This document shows, piece after piece, positions 10,696-32,435 of a stretch of 36,808 bases of DNA; the stretch's first letter is position 1, and every line of letters starts with the position of its first letter. The DNA comes from Deltaproteobacteria bacterium (lineage in GTDB: Bacteria; SZUA-79; Acidulodesulfobacterales; Acidulodesulfobacteraceae). The notes below the pieces were generated by a model, which did not search any database, was not told the DNA's origin, and was given only the letters and a program-made list of their open reading frames with translations. The stretch covers positions 1 through 36,808 of the forward strand of contig JAMDCP010000019.1 of the NCBI GenBank assembly GCA_023489335.1. The letters run 5' to 3'. Position numbers and translations under genes: made by a program.

Positions 10696-10710
10696 GGCGC
10701 TAACTGCGCC
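10696..10710 (-). promoter_or_regulatory. SECIS-like hairpin of the truncated peptide gene
   Basis: On the minus strand GGCGC (10710-10706) pairs with GCGCC (10700-10696) around the loop AGTTA. The loop begins 20 bases after the in-frame TGA (10727-10725). Position and size match the hairpin of the intact copy, but every stem base pair differs from it. That is expected if structure rather than sequence is kept, though only two copies are compared. Whether SelB would bind this loop is unknown. Confidence 0.5.
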
Positions 10711-10806
10711 TATTTGCAGGACTTTCAGAAATAGCACGAATCCTTAATCCCGTAACCTTCCATAATTAAACTGTAAAATTCTTCGGCGGGGATTTCCTGA
10801 AATAGC
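10710..10806 (-). pseudogene. 5'-truncated second copy of the selenopeptide precursor
   Basis: Bases 10722-10806 match 13695-13779, the precursor gene, over 85 positions with one mismatch. The shared frame begins LFQEIPAEEFYSLIMEG, continues YGIKDSCYF, then an in-frame TGA (10727-10725), then KSCK and a TAG stop. The first eight leader residues and the Shine-Dalgarno sequence of the intact gene are gone. Upstream, the same frame stays open for some 35 more codons, back to about 10911, without an ATG; that stretch (for example PEYFPLSHLPLFYFDHRY) is not recognised. The remnant may be dead, or may start from a non-standard codon. The region 10654-11029 holds no other gene I can support. Confidence 0.7.
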
Positions 10807-11029: not shown

Positions 11030-13486
11030 TTATTTTTTATTAATAATAAAATTTTCAGCTATTTTTTTAATTATTAATTTTGTAAAATTAAAATCATTCC
11101 ATTGAGCTTTTTTTTCAAAATCATTAATTTTTTCTGGAAATAAAATATATGAAATCAAAATTGGGGTAAATGAAAAAATTCCGTTCAGTTCATTTATTAA
11201 ATCATTTATATTTTCCAGAACTCTTAATGCCTCATCTTTGCAATTTTTGGCAATAAGATTCAGACCCAAAGCCTCTGAAGCTAATAAAATTCCAGATTTA
11301 TAACCTATGTTTTTATTGGATTCTATTGCTCTTTTTGCGATTTCAATGCCCAAGTCTGGGTCAGAAAAAGCCAGTGCAATTGATTGCGATATTAAACCTC
11401 TATTCATTTGAATCGGTTCATTTAATTGTTTGCTACGTTCTATTGCATATTTTGAAAATTTTAGAGATCTGGATTGATTTGTAAAACGTAACGACTCAGC
11501 CATACAATTGAGAACAACATTTTCTTTATTATAGAGTGAATTAATTGATTTACACACTTGCAATGCCTCCATAAAATATTTTTTGGCATTAAAAAAGTCA
11601 AAATTATAACAGTAAATATCACCTTCCAGCATTAACTTTCTTAATTTTTCATCTTGATTTAAATTTTGAATATTCCCCATATTGTTTAATGAATCCTTAA
11701 AATTACCCTTTAAGGATAAAATTACAGAAATCCTTTCGAAACTCCTATCTTTAATTTCTGCGTCATTGTTATTGGTAATAGAAATGCCAGAAAGCTCTCT
11801 ATAGATGTCCAAACTTGTATCATAATTGCCAAGCAATTGATTGCAAAAACCAATATAAAAAAGATTATGATATTTCCATTCCCCCATACCTTTATCGTTT
11901 AAACTTTTAAATATACTTAAGGCCTTTTCCAAATCTTCACCCATAAATAGACAAGTTGCATATAAAAAATTTAAAAAATTATTTGAAGAAATAATCTCGC
12001 TTCCAAGATTATTGATACCTTTTCCAACATCTTTTCCGTATCCTTCGAAAATAAGTTTATGTCCTATTTCTACTATTATAGTAACATGACCCGGTTTAAT
12101 ATCGGATATTCCGAACTTTTGAAGAAAAGTGAGGCTCTGTTGATATATCCAGTTAGTTCTGTTTTTTTGATTTTCATAATAAAGTTCCTTAGAATATTCA
12201 ATCAAAGTAGAAAAAATCTTATATGCAGTTTCCTTTTCTATTTCTCTGTTTAAAAAACTTCTTATGGTATCATGAATCTTAAAAATTTTATTTTGCTCAT
12301 CTATTGCTATTGCAAAAGATGCTTCACAAAAATCGTTAAAACAGGTATAAGGAATATTAATATTTAGCTCTTTGGCGAATTTAAGGAACAATTCTATATC
12401 GAACTGCTCTAGTGATGCCATTATTTTAAGCGCTTCCGCTTCATCTTTATCAAGATAGTTCATAAAATTTCTTATAACATCATTTTGGGCAAGTTTAAAA
12501 TTTTCGGGAGAAATATTCTTGCCTTCCTGCTCTAGACTCATATAAATTCCGACACATAAGTCCAAATATAATGGCAAACCCTGAGAAACATCAATAATTG
12601 CTTTCTTTATTAAAACATCGTTTATTGGCACTCTGGAAAGAAAATAATCTACATCTGTCTCTGATAGCCCGCCTAAAATATGTTGTTCTAAGAAGCCTGA
12701 CCATTCCCCGTTTAAATCTGCCCATTTTAAATACTCCCTGCCCGCAATTACATACAAACCATTTTCAGCTGAGCCTATTAATTCTCTCAACCATTCATCT
12801 TCTGGTGAATTTTTATCTATTAGTTTATCAATAGAATCTATAAAAAAGATAAAATATTGATTATGGTAGTTATTTTCTATTGTTTTCCCAAGATAGTAAG
12901 GGAGTTTTTTTTCTAATTCTTTCTCTGTTAGGGCATTTATTTCATTAATAAATTTTTTATTACCGCCTAATCTCACGTATAGGCTTTCTTTTCCCCATGA
13001 AAGTAATTTATAAGAAAGTTTGACCGGAGCAAAAATACCGAATAATTGAGCGATAAAACCAACTATATCAAACAATATGCTATTTTCATTAAACTTATAA
13101 TTTTTTAAATCTGAAATCGGTCTTTTGGTTATCAGAAAATAGCGGCTCATTGCATATTCAAATTCTTTGGAGCAAATTTTAAGTTGTGCGTAAATATTTA
13201 AAAGATAATCAGCAGGATTTTTAAAAGCGGAAATATCAAGATTTATATTAACAATGGTAATATTAAGATGGGTTTTTTTATTTTCTTCTATTGCATAATT
13301 TTTAAGTTCTTTTAATAAAGATGTTTTTCCAATTCCTCCAATCCCATAATAGACGAGAATATTTAATTTCTTTTTTTTATTCTTATAGTCATCGAATGCT
13401 TTAAGAAAGATTTTCTTTGACTCATCTCTATCGGTAAATTCTTTTGTTGCTTTAATGTTGCTTAAAGTTTTTATTTTACTCAGCAT
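11030..13486 (-). CDS. STAND-type NTPase with C-terminal helical repeats
   Basis: The 818-residue protein has a P-loop GIGGIGKTS at about 48-56, a Walker B strand FIFFIDSID at about 213-220 and the STAND-typical GLPL motif at about 303-306, followed by a winged-helix-like region (about 330-420). The remainder (about 430-800) is an array of helical hairpins resembling TPR repeats, for example KALSIFKSLNDKGMGEWKYH and FFNAKKYFMEALQVCKS. STAND proteins are signalling switches, many of them phage sensors whose repeat region binds a trigger. No obvious effector domain is fused at either end: the protein opens directly with the FTDRDES segment before the P-loop. Base use is AT-rich relative to neighbours, and direct repeats flank it, consistent with acquisition by transfer. 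Confidence 0.8.
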   Translation of the reverse strand: MLSKIKTLSNIKATKEFTDRDESKKIFLKAFDDYKNKKKKLNILVYYGIGGIGKTSLLKELKNYAIEENKKTHLNITIVNINLDISAFKNPADYLLNIYAQLKICSKEFEYAMSRYFLITKRPISDLKNYKFNENSILFDIVGFIAQLFGIFAPVKLSYKLLSWGKESLYVRLGGNKKFINEINALTEKELEKKLPYYLGKTIENNYHNQYFIFFIDSIDKLIDKNSPEDEWLRELIGSAENGLYVIAGREYLKWADLNGEWSGFLEQHILGGLSETDVDYFLSRVPINDVLIKKAIIDVSQGLPLYLDLCVGIYMSLEQEGKNISPENFKLAQNDVIRNFMNYLDKDEAEALKIMASLEQFDIELFLKFAKELNINIPYTCFNDFCEASFAIAIDEQNKIFKIHDTIRSFLNREIEKETAYKIFSTLIEYSKELYYENQKNRTNWIYQQSLTFLQKFGISDIKPGHVTIIVEIGHKLIFEGYGKDVGKGINNLGSEIISSNNFLNFLYATCLFMGEDLEKALSIFKSLNDKGMGEWKYHNLFYIGFCNQLLGNYDTSLDIYRELSGISITNNNDAEIKDRSFERISVILSLKGNFKDSLNNMGNIQNLNQDEKLRKLMLEGDIYCYNFDFFNAKKYFMEALQVCKSINSLYNKENVVLNCMAESLRFTNQSRSLKFSKYAIERSKQLNEPIQMNRGLISQSIALAFSDPDLGIEIAKRAIESNKNIGYKSGILLASEALGLNLIAKNCKDEALRVLENINDLINELNGIFSFTPILISYILFPEKINDFEKKAQWNDFNFTKLIIKKIAENFIINKK

Positions 13487-13608: not shown

Positions 13609-13642
13609 AAATATCTCCCTATTCTTAAATAGGGAGATATTT
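13609..13642 (-). terminator. Strong hairpin terminator after the selenopeptide gene
   Basis: A perfect 15-bp stem (13609-13623 with 13628-13642) around the tetraloop CTTA. On the minus strand it is followed by a T-rich tract. It lies about 40 bases past the precursor stop codon, closing the radical SAM-PqqD-precursor unit before the STAND gene. Confidence 0.85.
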
Positions 13643-13661: not shown

Positions 13662-13678
13662 ATGTGCAACCTGCACAT
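13662..13678 (-). promoter_or_regulatory. Candidate SECIS element of the selenopeptide gene
   Basis: On the minus strand ATGTGC (13678-13673) pairs with GCACAT (13667-13662) around the loop AGGTT. The loop starts 26 bases after the UGA at 13700-13698. Bacterial SECIS elements place a short hairpin with G and U in the loop at roughly this distance. The E. coli fdhF element has GCAGGUCUGC at its apex, close to GCAGGUUGC here. The hairpin overlaps no other coding sequence and is separate from the terminator. Confidence 0.7.
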
Positions 13679-13679
13679 T

Positions 13680-13802
13680 TCATTTTTTGCATTCCTTTCA
13701 GGAATAGCACGAATCCTTAATCCCGTAACCTTCCATAATTAAACTGTAAAATTCTTCGGCGGGGATTTCCTGAAATAGCGGGGCTTCATAAATCTTTTTC
13801 AT
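13680..13802 (-). CDS. Selenocysteine-containing RiPP precursor peptide
   Basis: AAGGAGG sits 8 bases before the ATG, the best ribosome binding site in the window. The frame encodes a leader starting MKKIYEAPLFQEIPAEEF, a style common in radical-SAM RiPP precursors, then YSLIMEGYGIKDSCYS, an in-frame TGA (codon 35), KECKK and a TGA stop. If codon 35 is selenocysteine the peptide has 40 residues and a core Cys32-x-x-Sec35-x-x-Cys38. Support for readthrough: a SECIS-type hairpin downstream, a second copy keeping Sec-Lys-x-Cys-Lys, and selA and selD in the same window. If the TGA were a real stop, a 34-residue peptide ending CYS would result. It lies 63 bases after the PqqD-like gene, in the same direction. 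The product is unknown. Confidence 0.72.
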
Positions 13803-13865
13803 AAATTTCACCTCCTTAGTTTGGTTTTTTGGTTATAGTTGAGTTATGTCAAGCTGTTTTATAAT

Positions 13866-14150
13866 TTATATACTTGAAATATACCGCCTTGCCGAAAGGA
13901 GCTGTATTAAATCGTTAAAATCTTTTGCCGCCTCTTCCCTGCCGGCATTAAAAGTATTCGTTATGTTTTTTATTATATCCTCATCCGTGTTTTTTCCGTC
14001 GCACAACGATAAAATTTTATACGATACCTCATTTAATTTATAAATATCTCCATTCAGGTTATCAAAAAGCATATAATTTTTCCCATCCTGTTTTATGCTT
14101 ATATTATCCGCAAGTTTTAATATTCGAACTTGCGCGGGCGGTTGACTCAT
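13866..14150 (-). CDS. PqqD-like RiPP recognition element protein
   Basis: A 94-residue protein of the PqqD fold: beta strands (VRILKLADNISIKQDGKNYMLFD) followed by a winged-helix part with NLNGDIYKLNEVSYKILSLCDGKNT, EDIIKNITNTF and a final helix DFNDLIQLLSARRYI. Such domains bind the leader of a ribosomally made peptide and present it to a radical SAM enzyme. An AGGGAG ribosome binding site precedes the ATG. It lies between the radical SAM/SPASM gene and the tiny precursor gene, all on the minus strand. The partner peptide is almost certainly the one 63 bases downstream. Confidence 0.85.
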   Translation of the reverse strand: MSQPPAQVRILKLADNISIKQDGKNYMLFDNLNGDIYKLNEVSYKILSLCDGKNTDEDIIKNITNTFNAGREEAAKDFNDLIQLLSARRYISSI

Positions 14151-14270: not shown

Positions 14271-15287
14271 TCATATCCAGCATTGCGGATCTTTTGTATT
14301 TAAATCTCCGTTATGGTAATAACTTATAGCCTTGCACCCGCCGCACCTTTCGATATGCGGGCAATTCGAACATTCGTTTTCGTCCGTCCTTTTTCTCATT
14401 TGCCATAAAATTTCGGAGTTATACCACACCTTAAAAAACCCGTCGGATAAAATATTGCCGAGCGGCAAATAAAGTCTCCTGCACGGCAGCAAAGTGCCGT
14501 CATGCAGAACGCATATGGAAGAAAGCCCGACAGGGCAGTAACCGCCGCAGTTTTCGTCTACAAGGTTCCACAGCGGCCTCGATGTGGCAAGTTTAGTGCT
14601 TTTATTAAAAAACTCCTTTTTTGCTTTATAATAGACATCCGAATAAATCCTTTTTAATTCCTGAGCCCCGATAAAAAATTCCTCTTTTTCAGTCTCGCTC
14701 ATGGCCGTCATTCGTTCGACGGTCAGGGCATCCGCATTCAAAGAAGAGGCCAATTCCGGCATATTTACGGCAGATTCTTTGTTTTTTTTATGAAGGGTGA
14801 ACATTATAGATGTTTTAATACCGGCGTTTTTAAGTTTTTTGACGGATTCCGCCGCTTTTAAAAAGGTTCCCTTCCCCCTTATTTTATCGTGCGTTTTTTC
14901 GTTATGTCCATCTAAAGAAATTTGAATTTCCGAAATCTTTTTATATTTTTTTATTTCGTTAACCATATTATCATCGATTAATGTGCCGTTGGTTAATATT
15001 GCGATATTCTTAAAATTATCCGATTCTTCGATTAAGCTTGCCAGGTAAAAAAGGCCGTCCGGCCTTAGAAACGGTTCCCCGCCCGTTAATGAAATAAAGC
15101 ATTTCGTTTTCCATTTAGACATAGCCTCGTCGATTTTAAAAAAAATTGACCCCAACAGGTTTAGGTCTATATCTTTATGGTTATAATTATTTTGATAACA
15201 ATGGATGCATCTTAAATTGCAGGATTCAATAAAATGCCATTGGACATAAAACTCATTATTCCGGTTTTGATTATTATACGCATCCAT
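14271..15287 (-). CDS. Radical SAM/SPASM peptide maturase
   Basis: The 338-residue enzyme has the radical SAM cluster motif CNLRCIHC (Cys23, Cys27, Cys30) and a SAM-binding GGEP at 69-72. Its SPASM domain begins near 245 with Cys247, Cys251, Cys259 and Cys269, and continues with CSNCPHIERCGGC (Cys306-Cys318) and Cys336 in DPQCWI. These ligate two auxiliary [4Fe-4S] clusters. Proteins of this type modify ribosomal peptides, for example forming thioether or carbon-carbon links at cysteine or other side chains. The PqqD-like carrier and the selenocysteine peptide downstream are the likely partners. The start ATG has no Shine-Dalgarno sequence, but a good promoter lies just upstream. The modification made cannot be read from the sequence. 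Confidence 0.88.
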   Translation of the reverse strand: MDAYNNQNRNNEFYVQWHFIESCNLRCIHCYQNNYNHKDIDLNLLGSIFFKIDEAMSKWKTKCFISLTGGEPFLRPDGLFYLASLIEESDNFKNIAILTNGTLIDDNMVNEIKKYKKISEIQISLDGHNEKTHDKIRGKGTFLKAAESVKKLKNAGIKTSIMFTLHKKNKESAVNMPELASSLNADALTVERMTAMSETEKEEFFIGAQELKRIYSDVYYKAKKEFFNKSTKLATSRPLWNLVDENCGGYCPVGLSSICVLHDGTLLPCRRLYLPLGNILSDGFFKVWYNSEILWQMRKRTDENECSNCPHIERCGGCKAISYYHNGDLNTKDPQCWI

Positions 15288-25950: not shown

Positions 25951-27408
25951 ATGGAACATAATAAAAATGAAATATTAAGGAAATTTCCGGGCGTCTATGA
26001 AATCCTTGAAAATAAGGATGTTGAATTGCTTAGCAAGGATTTTTCTTATAATTTTGTAAAAGAAAGGCTTAATGCTTTAATAAAACAGGAAAAAGATAAT
26101 GTTTTAAATCTTTTAAACACGGAAACCGCGGAAGCCGGAAATTTAGGTGAGGAAAGATTTAGAGTTGAATATTTTGTCGGCAGGCTTAAAAATGATTTAA
26201 ATAATTTTTCTTTTAGTTTAAAAAGAGTTGTCAATGGGACGGGCGTCGTTATCCATACAAATTTAGGGCGTTCCATTTTGCCGGAAAGGGCAGTTAAAAA
26301 TGTTGCGCAAATATCGTCATCCTATTCAAATTTAGAATTTAGTTTGACGGAGGGTAAAAGGGGCAAAAGATATTCGCATGTAGAATATCTACTTCAAAAA
26401 ATTTTAAAATGCGAAAAGGCTATCGTCGTGAATAATAATGCAGCCGCTGTTTTTATGGCGCTGTCATCATTTTGCGCGGAACAAAAGAAGGAAGTAATAG
26501 TTTCAAGAGGGGAACTTATCGAAATTGGCGGGTCGTTTAGAATACCCGACATAATGAAAGCTTCGGGTGCTGCTTTAGTGGAAGTCGGTACGACAAATAA
26601 GACAAAGCCTTCGGATTATGAAAAAAACATAAATGAAAACACCGCTCTTTTATTAAAAGTGCATCATAGCAATTTTAGAATGAGGGGTTTTGTCGGCGAG
26701 CTATCGAGCAAAGATCTTGTTTCCATTGGTAGAAACTACCATATACCAGTTATGGAAGACCTGGGTTCGGGCAGTTTTGTGGGTATTGAAAGATTTGGGC
26801 TGCCTCACGAACCCACTGCCCAGGAGGTTGTTAACGCAGGCGTGGATATTATCACATTTAGCGGTGATAAACTGCTGGGGGGGCCTCAGGCAGGGATAAT
26901 AGCGGGAAAAAAAGAGTATGTGGATTTAATTGCATCGAATCCCTTAAACAGGGCATTTAGAATAGATAAAATGACGCTTGCCGCGCTTGAAGCCGTCCTC
27001 TTCGAATATTTAGATATAGAAACCGCGGTGAAAAGGATACCCACACTTTTTTTTCTTTCGCAAAGCGGAGAAGACATTAAAAGAAAAGCATTCAGGCTTT
27101 TAAATAAAATTAAAAAACTTGAATACGCAAATAAAAATATATATAATTTTAAGGTAGTAGAGGATTTGAGCATCGTTGGAGGCGGAGCTTTGCCGGACTA
27201 CGAACTCAAAACATATTCCATAAGCATTGCCCATAAAACATTAAGCGCCGATAAATTAAGCCGGATTTTTCGCAGCTTTCGTGTTCCGATTATTGGAAAA
27301 ATAAAAAATGAAGAGTTTTTAATTGATGTTAGAACCGTGCTCGAAACAGATTTTAAAGATATAATTCAGGCGTTAAAATCTATCCCGGACAGGGAATATG
27401 AATATTAA
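25951..27408 (+). CDS. selA: L-seryl-tRNA(Sec) selenium transferase SelA
   Basis: SelA converts Ser-tRNA(Sec) to selenocysteinyl-tRNA(Sec) using selenophosphate. The PLP lysine is Lys307 in TFSGDKLLGGPQAGII. Other family motifs are VVNGTGVVIHTNLGRS, NNNAAAVFMAL, VSRGELIEIGGSFRIPDIM and LLKVHHSNFRMRGFVGE. The 485-residue length covers the whole family, including the N-terminal tRNA-binding helices. With selD in the same window this shows the organism makes selenocysteine. selB and tRNA(Sec) genes are not seen here. Confidence 0.97.
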   Translation: MEHNKNEILRKFPGVYEILENKDVELLSKDFSYNFVKERLNALIKQEKDNVLNLLNTETAEAGNLGEERFRVEYFVGRLKNDLNNFSFSLKRVVNGTGVVIHTNLGRSILPERAVKNVAQISSSYSNLEFSLTEGKRGKRYSHVEYLLQKILKCEKAIVVNNNAAAVFMALSSFCAEQKKEVIVSRGELIEIGGSFRIPDIMKASGAALVEVGTTNKTKPSDYEKNINENTALLLKVHHSNFRMRGFVGELSSKDLVSIGRNYHIPVMEDLGSGSFVGIERFGLPHEPTAQEVVNAGVDIITFSGDKLLGGPQAGIIAGKKEYVDLIASNPLNRAFRIDKMTLAALEAVLFEYLDIETAVKRIPTLFFLSQSGEDIKRKAFRLLNKIKKLEYANKNIYNFKVVEDLSIVGGGALPDYELKTYSISIAHKTLSADKLSRIFRSFRVPIIGKIKNEEFLIDVRTVLETDFKDIIQALKSIPDREYEY

Positions 27409-31379: not shown

Positions 31380-32435
31380 ATGACAGCAAAAAAATATAAA
31401 CTTACAAGTTTGGCAAGCGCCCACGGCTGAGGATGCAAGATAGGTCCGGAGGACCTCTCGAAGATTCTCGAAAAATTGCCTGTTCCAAAAAACGATAATG
31501 TTTTGGTTGGATTTGAGTATAAAGATGATGCGGGTGTTTATAAAATAAGCAATGATTCCTGTCTTATTCAAACAGTTGATTTTTTTACGCCTGTGGTGGA
31601 CGACCCTTATACTTTTGGCCAGATTGCTGCCGCAAATGCGCTTTCGGATGTCTATGCCATGGGAGGAAAGCCGATAACGGCTTTAAATATTGCCTGTTTT
31701 CCGGTTAAGGAAACAGAAAAAAAAGTTTTTAACCTTATACTTCTTGGCGGTTTGGATAAGATAAACGAGGCAGGGGCAGCGCTTTTAGGCGGCCACTCGA
31801 TAGACGACAAAGAGCTTAAATACGGGCTTAGCGTTACGGGGGTTTGCAATATAAATGAAATCTATTCTAATAAAGGAGCAAGTCCCGGAGATATTTTATA
31901 TTTAACAAAAAGCCTTGGAACGGGGTTTGTTGTCAGCGCTATTTGTACGGATTTTTTAAGCGCGGATTCGCTGAACGAAGCCTCTTTATCTATGTCAAAG
32001 CTTAATAAAAGGGCTTCCGAGATTGCCGTTTCTTTAAAATCGCCAAACGCTCTTACGGATGTTACAGGTTTCGGACTCATTGGGCATTTAAGCGAGATGA
32101 TGCTCGCAAGCGGCGCCGCTTGCGAGGTTGATTTATCCTCCCTGCCTGCCATAAACGGGGTATATGAATTAATAAGGAAAGGGATAAACCCGGCAGGGAC
32201 CAAGCGAAACAGAAAATATTTTTCAAAATATGTATCTACCTCGAAAAATGTTGATGAAAATTTACTATGGTTAGCTTTTGGCGCAGAGACTTCGGGCGGA
32301 CTTGTGATGCCGGTTCCCGAATCAAAATCGGACGCGCTGGAACTTGCTTTTAAAAACGCCGAAGAGCCGCTGCGCAGGATAGGTAAAGTATTGCAAAAAG
32401 AGCATGATAAAGGTACCCTTATTTATTTGTTTTAA
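31380..32435 (+). CDS. selD: Selenophosphate synthase SelD, itself a selenoprotein (Sec17)
   Basis: SelD makes selenophosphate from selenide and ATP. The frame starts at ATG 31380 (MTAKKYKLTSLASAHG), reads through TGA at 31428-31430 and continues GCKIGPEDL. The Sec is residue 17 and Lys20 follows, matching Cys17 and Lys20 of E. coli SelD. Later motifs are LVGFEYKDDAGVY, TVDFFTPVVDDPYTFGQIAA, AMGGKPITALNIACFPV, LLGGHSIDDKELKYGLSVTG, TDVTGFGLIGHLSEM and AETSGGL. Without decoding of the TGA a gene finder would start at a TTG (31476) and lose the catalytic residues. The 351-residue product has normal length. It closes the mla gene run; the RACo-like gene starts 6 bases later. Confidence 0.95.
31442..31456 (+). 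promoter_or_regulatory. SECIS element in selD
   Basis: AGGTCC (31442-31447) pairs with GGACCT (31451-31456) around GGA; two more pairs continue outward after a mismatch. The loop begins 18 bases after the TGA, in the window used by bacterial SECIS elements. It lies within the coding sequence, as usual for bacteria. Confidence 0.8.

Follow-up and report, generated by a model that had tools for sequence, protein, structure and literature searches.

A short frame on the minus strand of the 36,808-nt stretch of DNA analysed here (the window) runs through an in-frame UGA and lies beside genes for a PqqD-family protein and a radical SAM/SPASM enzyme. The locus raises the question of whether this UGA is read as selenocysteine (Sec) and, if so, whether the resulting peptide is a precursor on which the two neighbouring proteins act.

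The peptide gene and the reading of its UGA codon

A preliminary description of the window had reported a 40-codon frame with a strong Shine-Dalgarno site and an in-frame UGA at codon 35, placed in a minus-strand unit with PqqD and radical SAM/SPASM genes and closed by a perfect hairpin. All of these elements were found again, with the Shine-Dalgarno site, ATG, UGA and stop at the same sites and both partner genes upstream of the peptide on the same strand (Table 1). Translation of the gene (copy 1, 13802 to 13680) gives MKKIYEAPLFQEIPAEEFYSLIMEGYGIKDSCYS-U-KECKK, a peptide of 40 residues which ordinary gene finders overlook, the in-frame "stop" codon being read as selenocysteine. The description had overlooked a SECIS-like hairpin between the UGA and the terminator-like hairpin, as well as a second peptide copy and the selA and selD genes of the window.

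Table 1. Coordinates of the features discussed, numbered from the first nucleotide of the window.
Feature	Position	Strand	Details
SECIS-like hairpin, copy 2	10696..10710	-	GGCGC-AGUUA-GCGCC; loop 19 nt after UGA
Peptide copy 2, 5'-truncated	10710..10805	-	...FQEIPAEEFYSLIMEGYGIKDSCYF-U-KSCK, stop TAG; UGA at 10725-10727
STAND/TPR ATPase gene	11030-13486	-	818 codons; between copies 1 and 2
Perfect hairpin, terminator-like	13610..13641	-	14-bp stem, then U-rich stretch
SECIS-like hairpin, copy 1	13662..13678	-	AUGUGCA-GGU-UGCACAU; apical loop 26 nt after UGA
Predicted Sec-containing precursor peptide, copy 1	13680..13802	-	leader MKKIYEAPLFQEIPAEEFYSLIMEGYGIKD, core SCYS-U-KECKK
Stop at codon 41, copy 1	13680-13682	-
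UGA codon 35, predicted Sec	13698..13700	-	UGA in 26, Cys codon in 10 of 36 homologous copies
Start ATG, copy 1	13800-13802	-
Shine-Dalgarno site	13811..13817	-	AAGGAGG; comparable sites 5' of homologues
PqqD-family leader-binding (RRE) protein	13866..14150	-	Pfam PF05402, E 1.3e-12
Radical SAM/SPASM maturase	14271..15287	-	PF04055, PF13186; CxxxCxxC and seven SPASM cysteines
SelA, L-seryl-tRNA(Sec) selenium transferase	25951..27408	+	TIGR00474, 566 bits
SelD, itself read as selenoprotein	31380..32435	+	TIGR00476; MTAKKYKLTSLASAHG-U-GCKIGPEDL...; UGA at 31428-31430

Homologues were sought in 146 genomes with a single sequence as query and in 386 genomes with a profile. The preliminary description had proposed such a search within the same lineage, and it yielded 36 copies; of the 30 genomes in the window's bacterial family (Ca. 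Acidulodesulfobacterales), 27 have at least one. The copies lie mostly beside radical SAM/PqqD genes. No credible peptide match was obtained outside this family in the profile search of the 356 other genomes, and no relative of the peptide was found among the viral contigs and plasmids searched. When 84,980 species genomes were scanned for the peptide, 21 loci were returned; one of them is from Ca. Acididesulfobacter diazotrophicus AP1, which belongs to the Ca. Acidulodesulfobacterales (PMC6776010). One weak match, in G024, was rejected, as the protein is unrelated and has a CxxCGxC stretch.

The same description had named a TAA or TAG at codon 35, or loss of the Sec-x-x-Cys tail, as observations that would speak against the gene. 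At codon 35, 26 copies have TGA, 10 have TGC or TGT and none of the 36 has TAA or TAG, and the Cys-x2-[Sec/Cys]-x2-Cys tail is intact in every copy except one which is decayed. The frame lies far beyond chance, because the UGA/Cys position is common to 36 homologous copies. Purifying selection on the peptide is strong (pN/pS 0.12 for close pairs), and codons 3' of the UGA vary mostly at silent sites (pS 0.99 vs. pN 0.12). Residues Y5, P8, E16, E17 and F18 of the leader are invariant, with a YxxP motif at residues 5–8. At least four switches between Sec and Cys are required on a short and weak nucleotide tree, and the two versions occur together in three genomes (G007, G008, and G023), providing a natural experiment on what selenium contributes. 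Very short Sec genes of this sort, missed by standard gene calling, can be found by alignments which permit UGA/Cys exchange.

The published bSECIS model calls for a loop of 3–9 nt, a stem of 4–16 bp and a G within the first two loop positions, at 16–37 nt from the UGA (PMC13188914). This shape is present in 23 of the 24 tabulated UGA copies, the sole failure being a decayed one (G018:C88); the UGA copies of G011 and G029 are identical over the SECIS stretch to scored ones and were counted once. A hairpin with the loop AG[G/U]U, located 19–26 nt downstream of the UGA, is likewise found in 23 of the 24, compared with only two of the ten Cys copies (Fisher p 2e-5, a guide only, with kinship ignored). 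All four core stem pairs form in each of 17 aligned sequences, with none broken and with compensatory changes at two of the four. The model also sets a free energy limit at or below -7.5 kcal/mol (PMC13188914), which the isolated hairpin reaches in 9 of the 24 UGA copies; the hairpin of copy 1 has -6.6 kcal/mol and that of selD in the same window -7.4.

The machinery for Sec is found in the same genome, with SelA and SelD encoded in the window (Table 1), SelB above its cut-off and tRNA-Sec above the Rfam cut-off. The UGA of selD is accompanied by its own SECIS-like hairpin. Mechanical ORF calling shortens SelD to a TTG start at 31476 (31380-31480 of the window). Of the 30 family genomes, 27 encode a SelB that passes the cut-off, among them all four Cys-only genomes, and a link of Cys-type copies to SelB loss, sought among the 30 genomes, was not found.

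UGA35 is predicted with near certainty to encode Sec, because homologues, selection, the SECIS-like hairpin and the machinery agree. Standard gene calling would terminate at this codon, leaving a product of 34 residues ending in DSCYS. This reading was rejected as very improbable, however, as 10 homologous copies have Cys at codon 35, the K-x-C-K beyond the UGA is conserved with synonymous third-base changes, the hairpin is tied to the UGA and the genome possesses Sec machinery. Reassignment of UGA throughout the lineage (e.g., to Trp or Gly), which has the open frame itself in its favor and nothing further, was rejected as verging on the impossible, since UGA terminates the radical SAM gene as an ordinary stop in the same genome and homologues without a UGA at this position invariably have Cys there.

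Relation to known precursors and maturases

The SbtA/SbtM system also combines a Sec precursor, with a SECIS just after the UGA, and a radical SAM/SPASM maturase (PMC11002830; PMC13188914), and the present locus resembles it (TIGR04081/TIGR04082) in these three respects. SbtM turns Cys or Sec substrates into thio(seleno)oxazole (PMC11002830). This acceptance of either residue favors a divergent SbtA-like system, in which Sec or Cys and a neighbouring residue would be converted by the same chemistry, as does the score of the maturase with the SbtM model, 128 bits over its radical SAM part, near its best with any model (133). However, this score is far under the cut-off of 350, covers only positions 197–515 of 516 so that the first 196 are unmatched, and is similar to those with the GeoRSP, ACGX and AhbD models; no SbtM hit at E 1e-60 was obtained in any genome of the window's group. 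In contrast to the SbtA core, which has an SGUG motif and two Sec (PMC13188914), the core here is C-x2-U-x2-C (SCYSUK[S/E]CK), with a single Sec and no SGUG. Chemistry of the SbtM type is consequently considered unlikely. Beside true SbtM genes at L141–L144 no SbtA-like Sec peptide was recognised.

The preliminary description had left it possible that the peptide belongs to a known family of Sec peptides, the one now called SbtA. This has been ruled out, because TIGR04081 matches none of 18 precursors (entered as Cys) and nothing in the window's genome; the peptide is not SbtA/selenobacteriocin. Of the 119 prokaryotic selenoprotein families catalogued in 2026, selenobacteriocin is the only modified Sec peptide, and within the open-licence literature covered the catalogue has no entry for a C-x2-U-x2-C peptide of such kind (PMC13188914). 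Given this absence and that of any TIGR04081 match, the C-x2-U-x2-C Sec peptide is, as judged from sequence, a new family separate from SbtA. NCBIfam and Pfam scans of the 18 precursors gave chance hits only, with no NCBIfam target-peptide model matched. If the assignment is true, this would be the second modified Sec peptide family, with its own core and its own maturase pair.

The best models for the maturase include GeoRSP TIGR04303 and ACGX TIGR04340 (133 and 129 bits, among the top scores), with AhbD about equal, yet all of these scores are far under the cut-offs, which are 400 bits for the former two. Searches of solved sequences and folds gave, among the closest but distant relatives, the thioether maturases SkfB and CteB. 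These enzymes and PapB are SPASM maturases which act on Cys of their precursors and are distant in sequence from the window maturase; natural Sec is not known in their substrates. An AlphaFold model of the maturase (from 15 sequences) has a mean pLDDT of 70, with the SPASM half too weak for the chemistry to be read from it. Ten cysteines are invariant (C23, C27, C30, C251, C269, C306, C309, C315, C318, and C336), those of the SPASM part being spaced C251-x12-G-x4-C269, C306-x2-C-x5-C-x2-C318 and C336. With CxxxCxxC and seven invariant SPASM cysteines, two auxiliary clusters are therefore expected.

In lasso leaders, YxxP is the motif that contacts PqqD-like RRE proteins. Lasso-peptide precursors have both a leader of this type and a PqqD-like RRE in common with the present locus; their core is unrelated, and neither a lasso cyclase nor a lasso protease was seen here. 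NCBIfam PqqD-type models score below cut-off with the PqqD protein of the window.

Two sister clusters, at L124:3036-4481 (G030, of another family) and L099:3990-5411 (G009), are all-Cys and have the same order of radical SAM gene (35–38% identical), PqqD gene and short peptide gene. The sister peptide has a YxKP leader (...YEKPIL...) and ends in VCRQCSGCHGCR / VICRQCSSCHACR, with four Cys, a Cys at every third residue and no Sec; that of L099 may start at ATT. A search with it finds just L124 and L099 and never the Sec family, and it has no NCBIfam target-peptide model. These clusters are apparently an undescribed RiPP type, and their occurrence is consistent with a type of substrate that has Cys or Sec at every third residue. 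Small Cys- or Sec-rich peptides were not found beside the more distant maturase homologues (L125–L134).

Linkage to the maturase and a proposed mechanism

The order radical SAM–PqqD–peptide is found in most genomes and recurs across several genera. The usual flanking genes are OmpA-like and BioC-like on one side and cupin and glyoxalase on the other, but the order also occurs at loci with different flanking genes, and the link is therefore beyond mere synteny. A conserved transporter or peptidase gene was not recognised near the peptide loci. A maturase homologue at ≥60% identity is present in 23 of the 30 genomes.

The linkage is not complete. A full-length maturase was not detected in five peptide-bearing genomes, all drafts, namely G002 and G003 and, with Cys forms of the peptide, G012, G014, and G019. 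The peptide gene is intact in G003 and also in G002 (97% complete, 7 contigs), where it has both Sec and SECIS. In both G003 and G009 the intact peptide gene is directly preceded by a decayed piece of the maturase gene, and in G001, G007, G009, and G011 there are peptide loci apart from the maturase. All of these observations would suit an unmodified small selenoprotein, with C-x2-U-x2-C serving in redox or metal binding and the radical SAM/PqqD pair acting on another target; C-x2-U is in addition a common redox motif (PMC13188914). Against this stand the repeated occurrence of the peptide gene in close, ordered association with the PqqD and maturase genes, the YxxP leader, the related all-Cys cluster with an equivalent set of three genes from a different bacterial family (L124) and the retention of a maturase elsewhere in the genome in G001, G007, G009, and G011. 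An unmodified selenoprotein is accordingly regarded as improbable.

The claim of the preliminary description that the peptide is the precursor of the PqqD/radical SAM pair thus gains support from the linkage in most genomes, though not in the five where a full-length maturase escaped detection. From linkage, co-occurrence and the leader motif, the peptide is very likely a precursor served by this pair. The maturase is missing from three of four Cys-only genomes vs. 2 of 23 Sec-bearing ones (p 0.013, uncorrected, in draft genomes), which is suggestive of its more frequent absence from Cys-only genomes. The decayed 5' maturase fragments (L058:5336-5500 and L007:4-111) both end near codon 58, in two genera.

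In the mechanism proposed for such a precursor, SelB would deliver Sec-tRNA(Sec) to UGA35, guided by the hairpin 19–26 nt downstream, and the ribosome would complete a peptide of 39–40 residues ending in SC-x-x-U-x-x-CK. The PqqD protein would then hold the leader via YxxP at residues 5–8, while the radical SAM/SPASM enzyme would modify the C-terminal SCYSUK[S/E]CK segment, most plausibly by cross-linking carbon to sulfur or selenium. This would yield a small peptide that contains selenium and is redox-active or binds metal. The reading as a Sec-containing RiPP precursor as a whole, its exact chemistry aside, is held with good confidence, and the modification probably falls on the Cys/Sec core. 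The SPASM enzyme PapB is reported to form a selenoether on a Sec-substituted peptide (PMC10470005). A thio- or selenoether rather than other chemistry is a tentative guess from the nearest relatives, given slightly less than an even chance. Its chief competitor among the chemistries is thio(seleno)oxazole, and what weight these two and an unmodified peptide leave falls to other reactions. Evenly balanced is the fuller proposal that the acid-mine Acidulodesulfobacterales may possess a second natural Sec-RiPP family, its C-x2-U-x2-C core being selenoether- or otherwise Se-cross-linked by its own PqqD/radical SAM pair.

The second copy and other neighbouring genes

Copy 2 of the peptide gene lacks a start and a Shine-Dalgarno site and shares a block of ~75 nt identical to copy 1, and is probably a remnant. 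Its 3' side resembles the locus of relatives, where the peptide gene is followed by a glyoxalase gene (e.g., in G002). Copy 1 has a different 3' end and SECIS. This arrangement is most simply explained by an insertion into the peptide gene, or a recombination there, through which it regained a functional 3' end carrying another SECIS.

DsrE-family or GcvH-like neighbours of the peptide loci occur in G008, G014, G016, G019, and G023 (assigned in G014 and G019 from similarity in sequence to the gene of G008); they are not conserved family-wide and offer hints of sulfur handling or trafficking. Several Cys-type copies lie directly 3' of an exported DsrE-family gene (L047, L049, L008, and L015), and GcvH-like genes are found near the G008 and G016 loci. 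Near the maturase-PqqD pair in G008, a gene at L096:3524 encodes a small exported protein in which NPCG/ACGK/SCGK motifs recur, and a protein with a similar NPCG-like start is encoded between peptide copies at 5947-6582 of L047.
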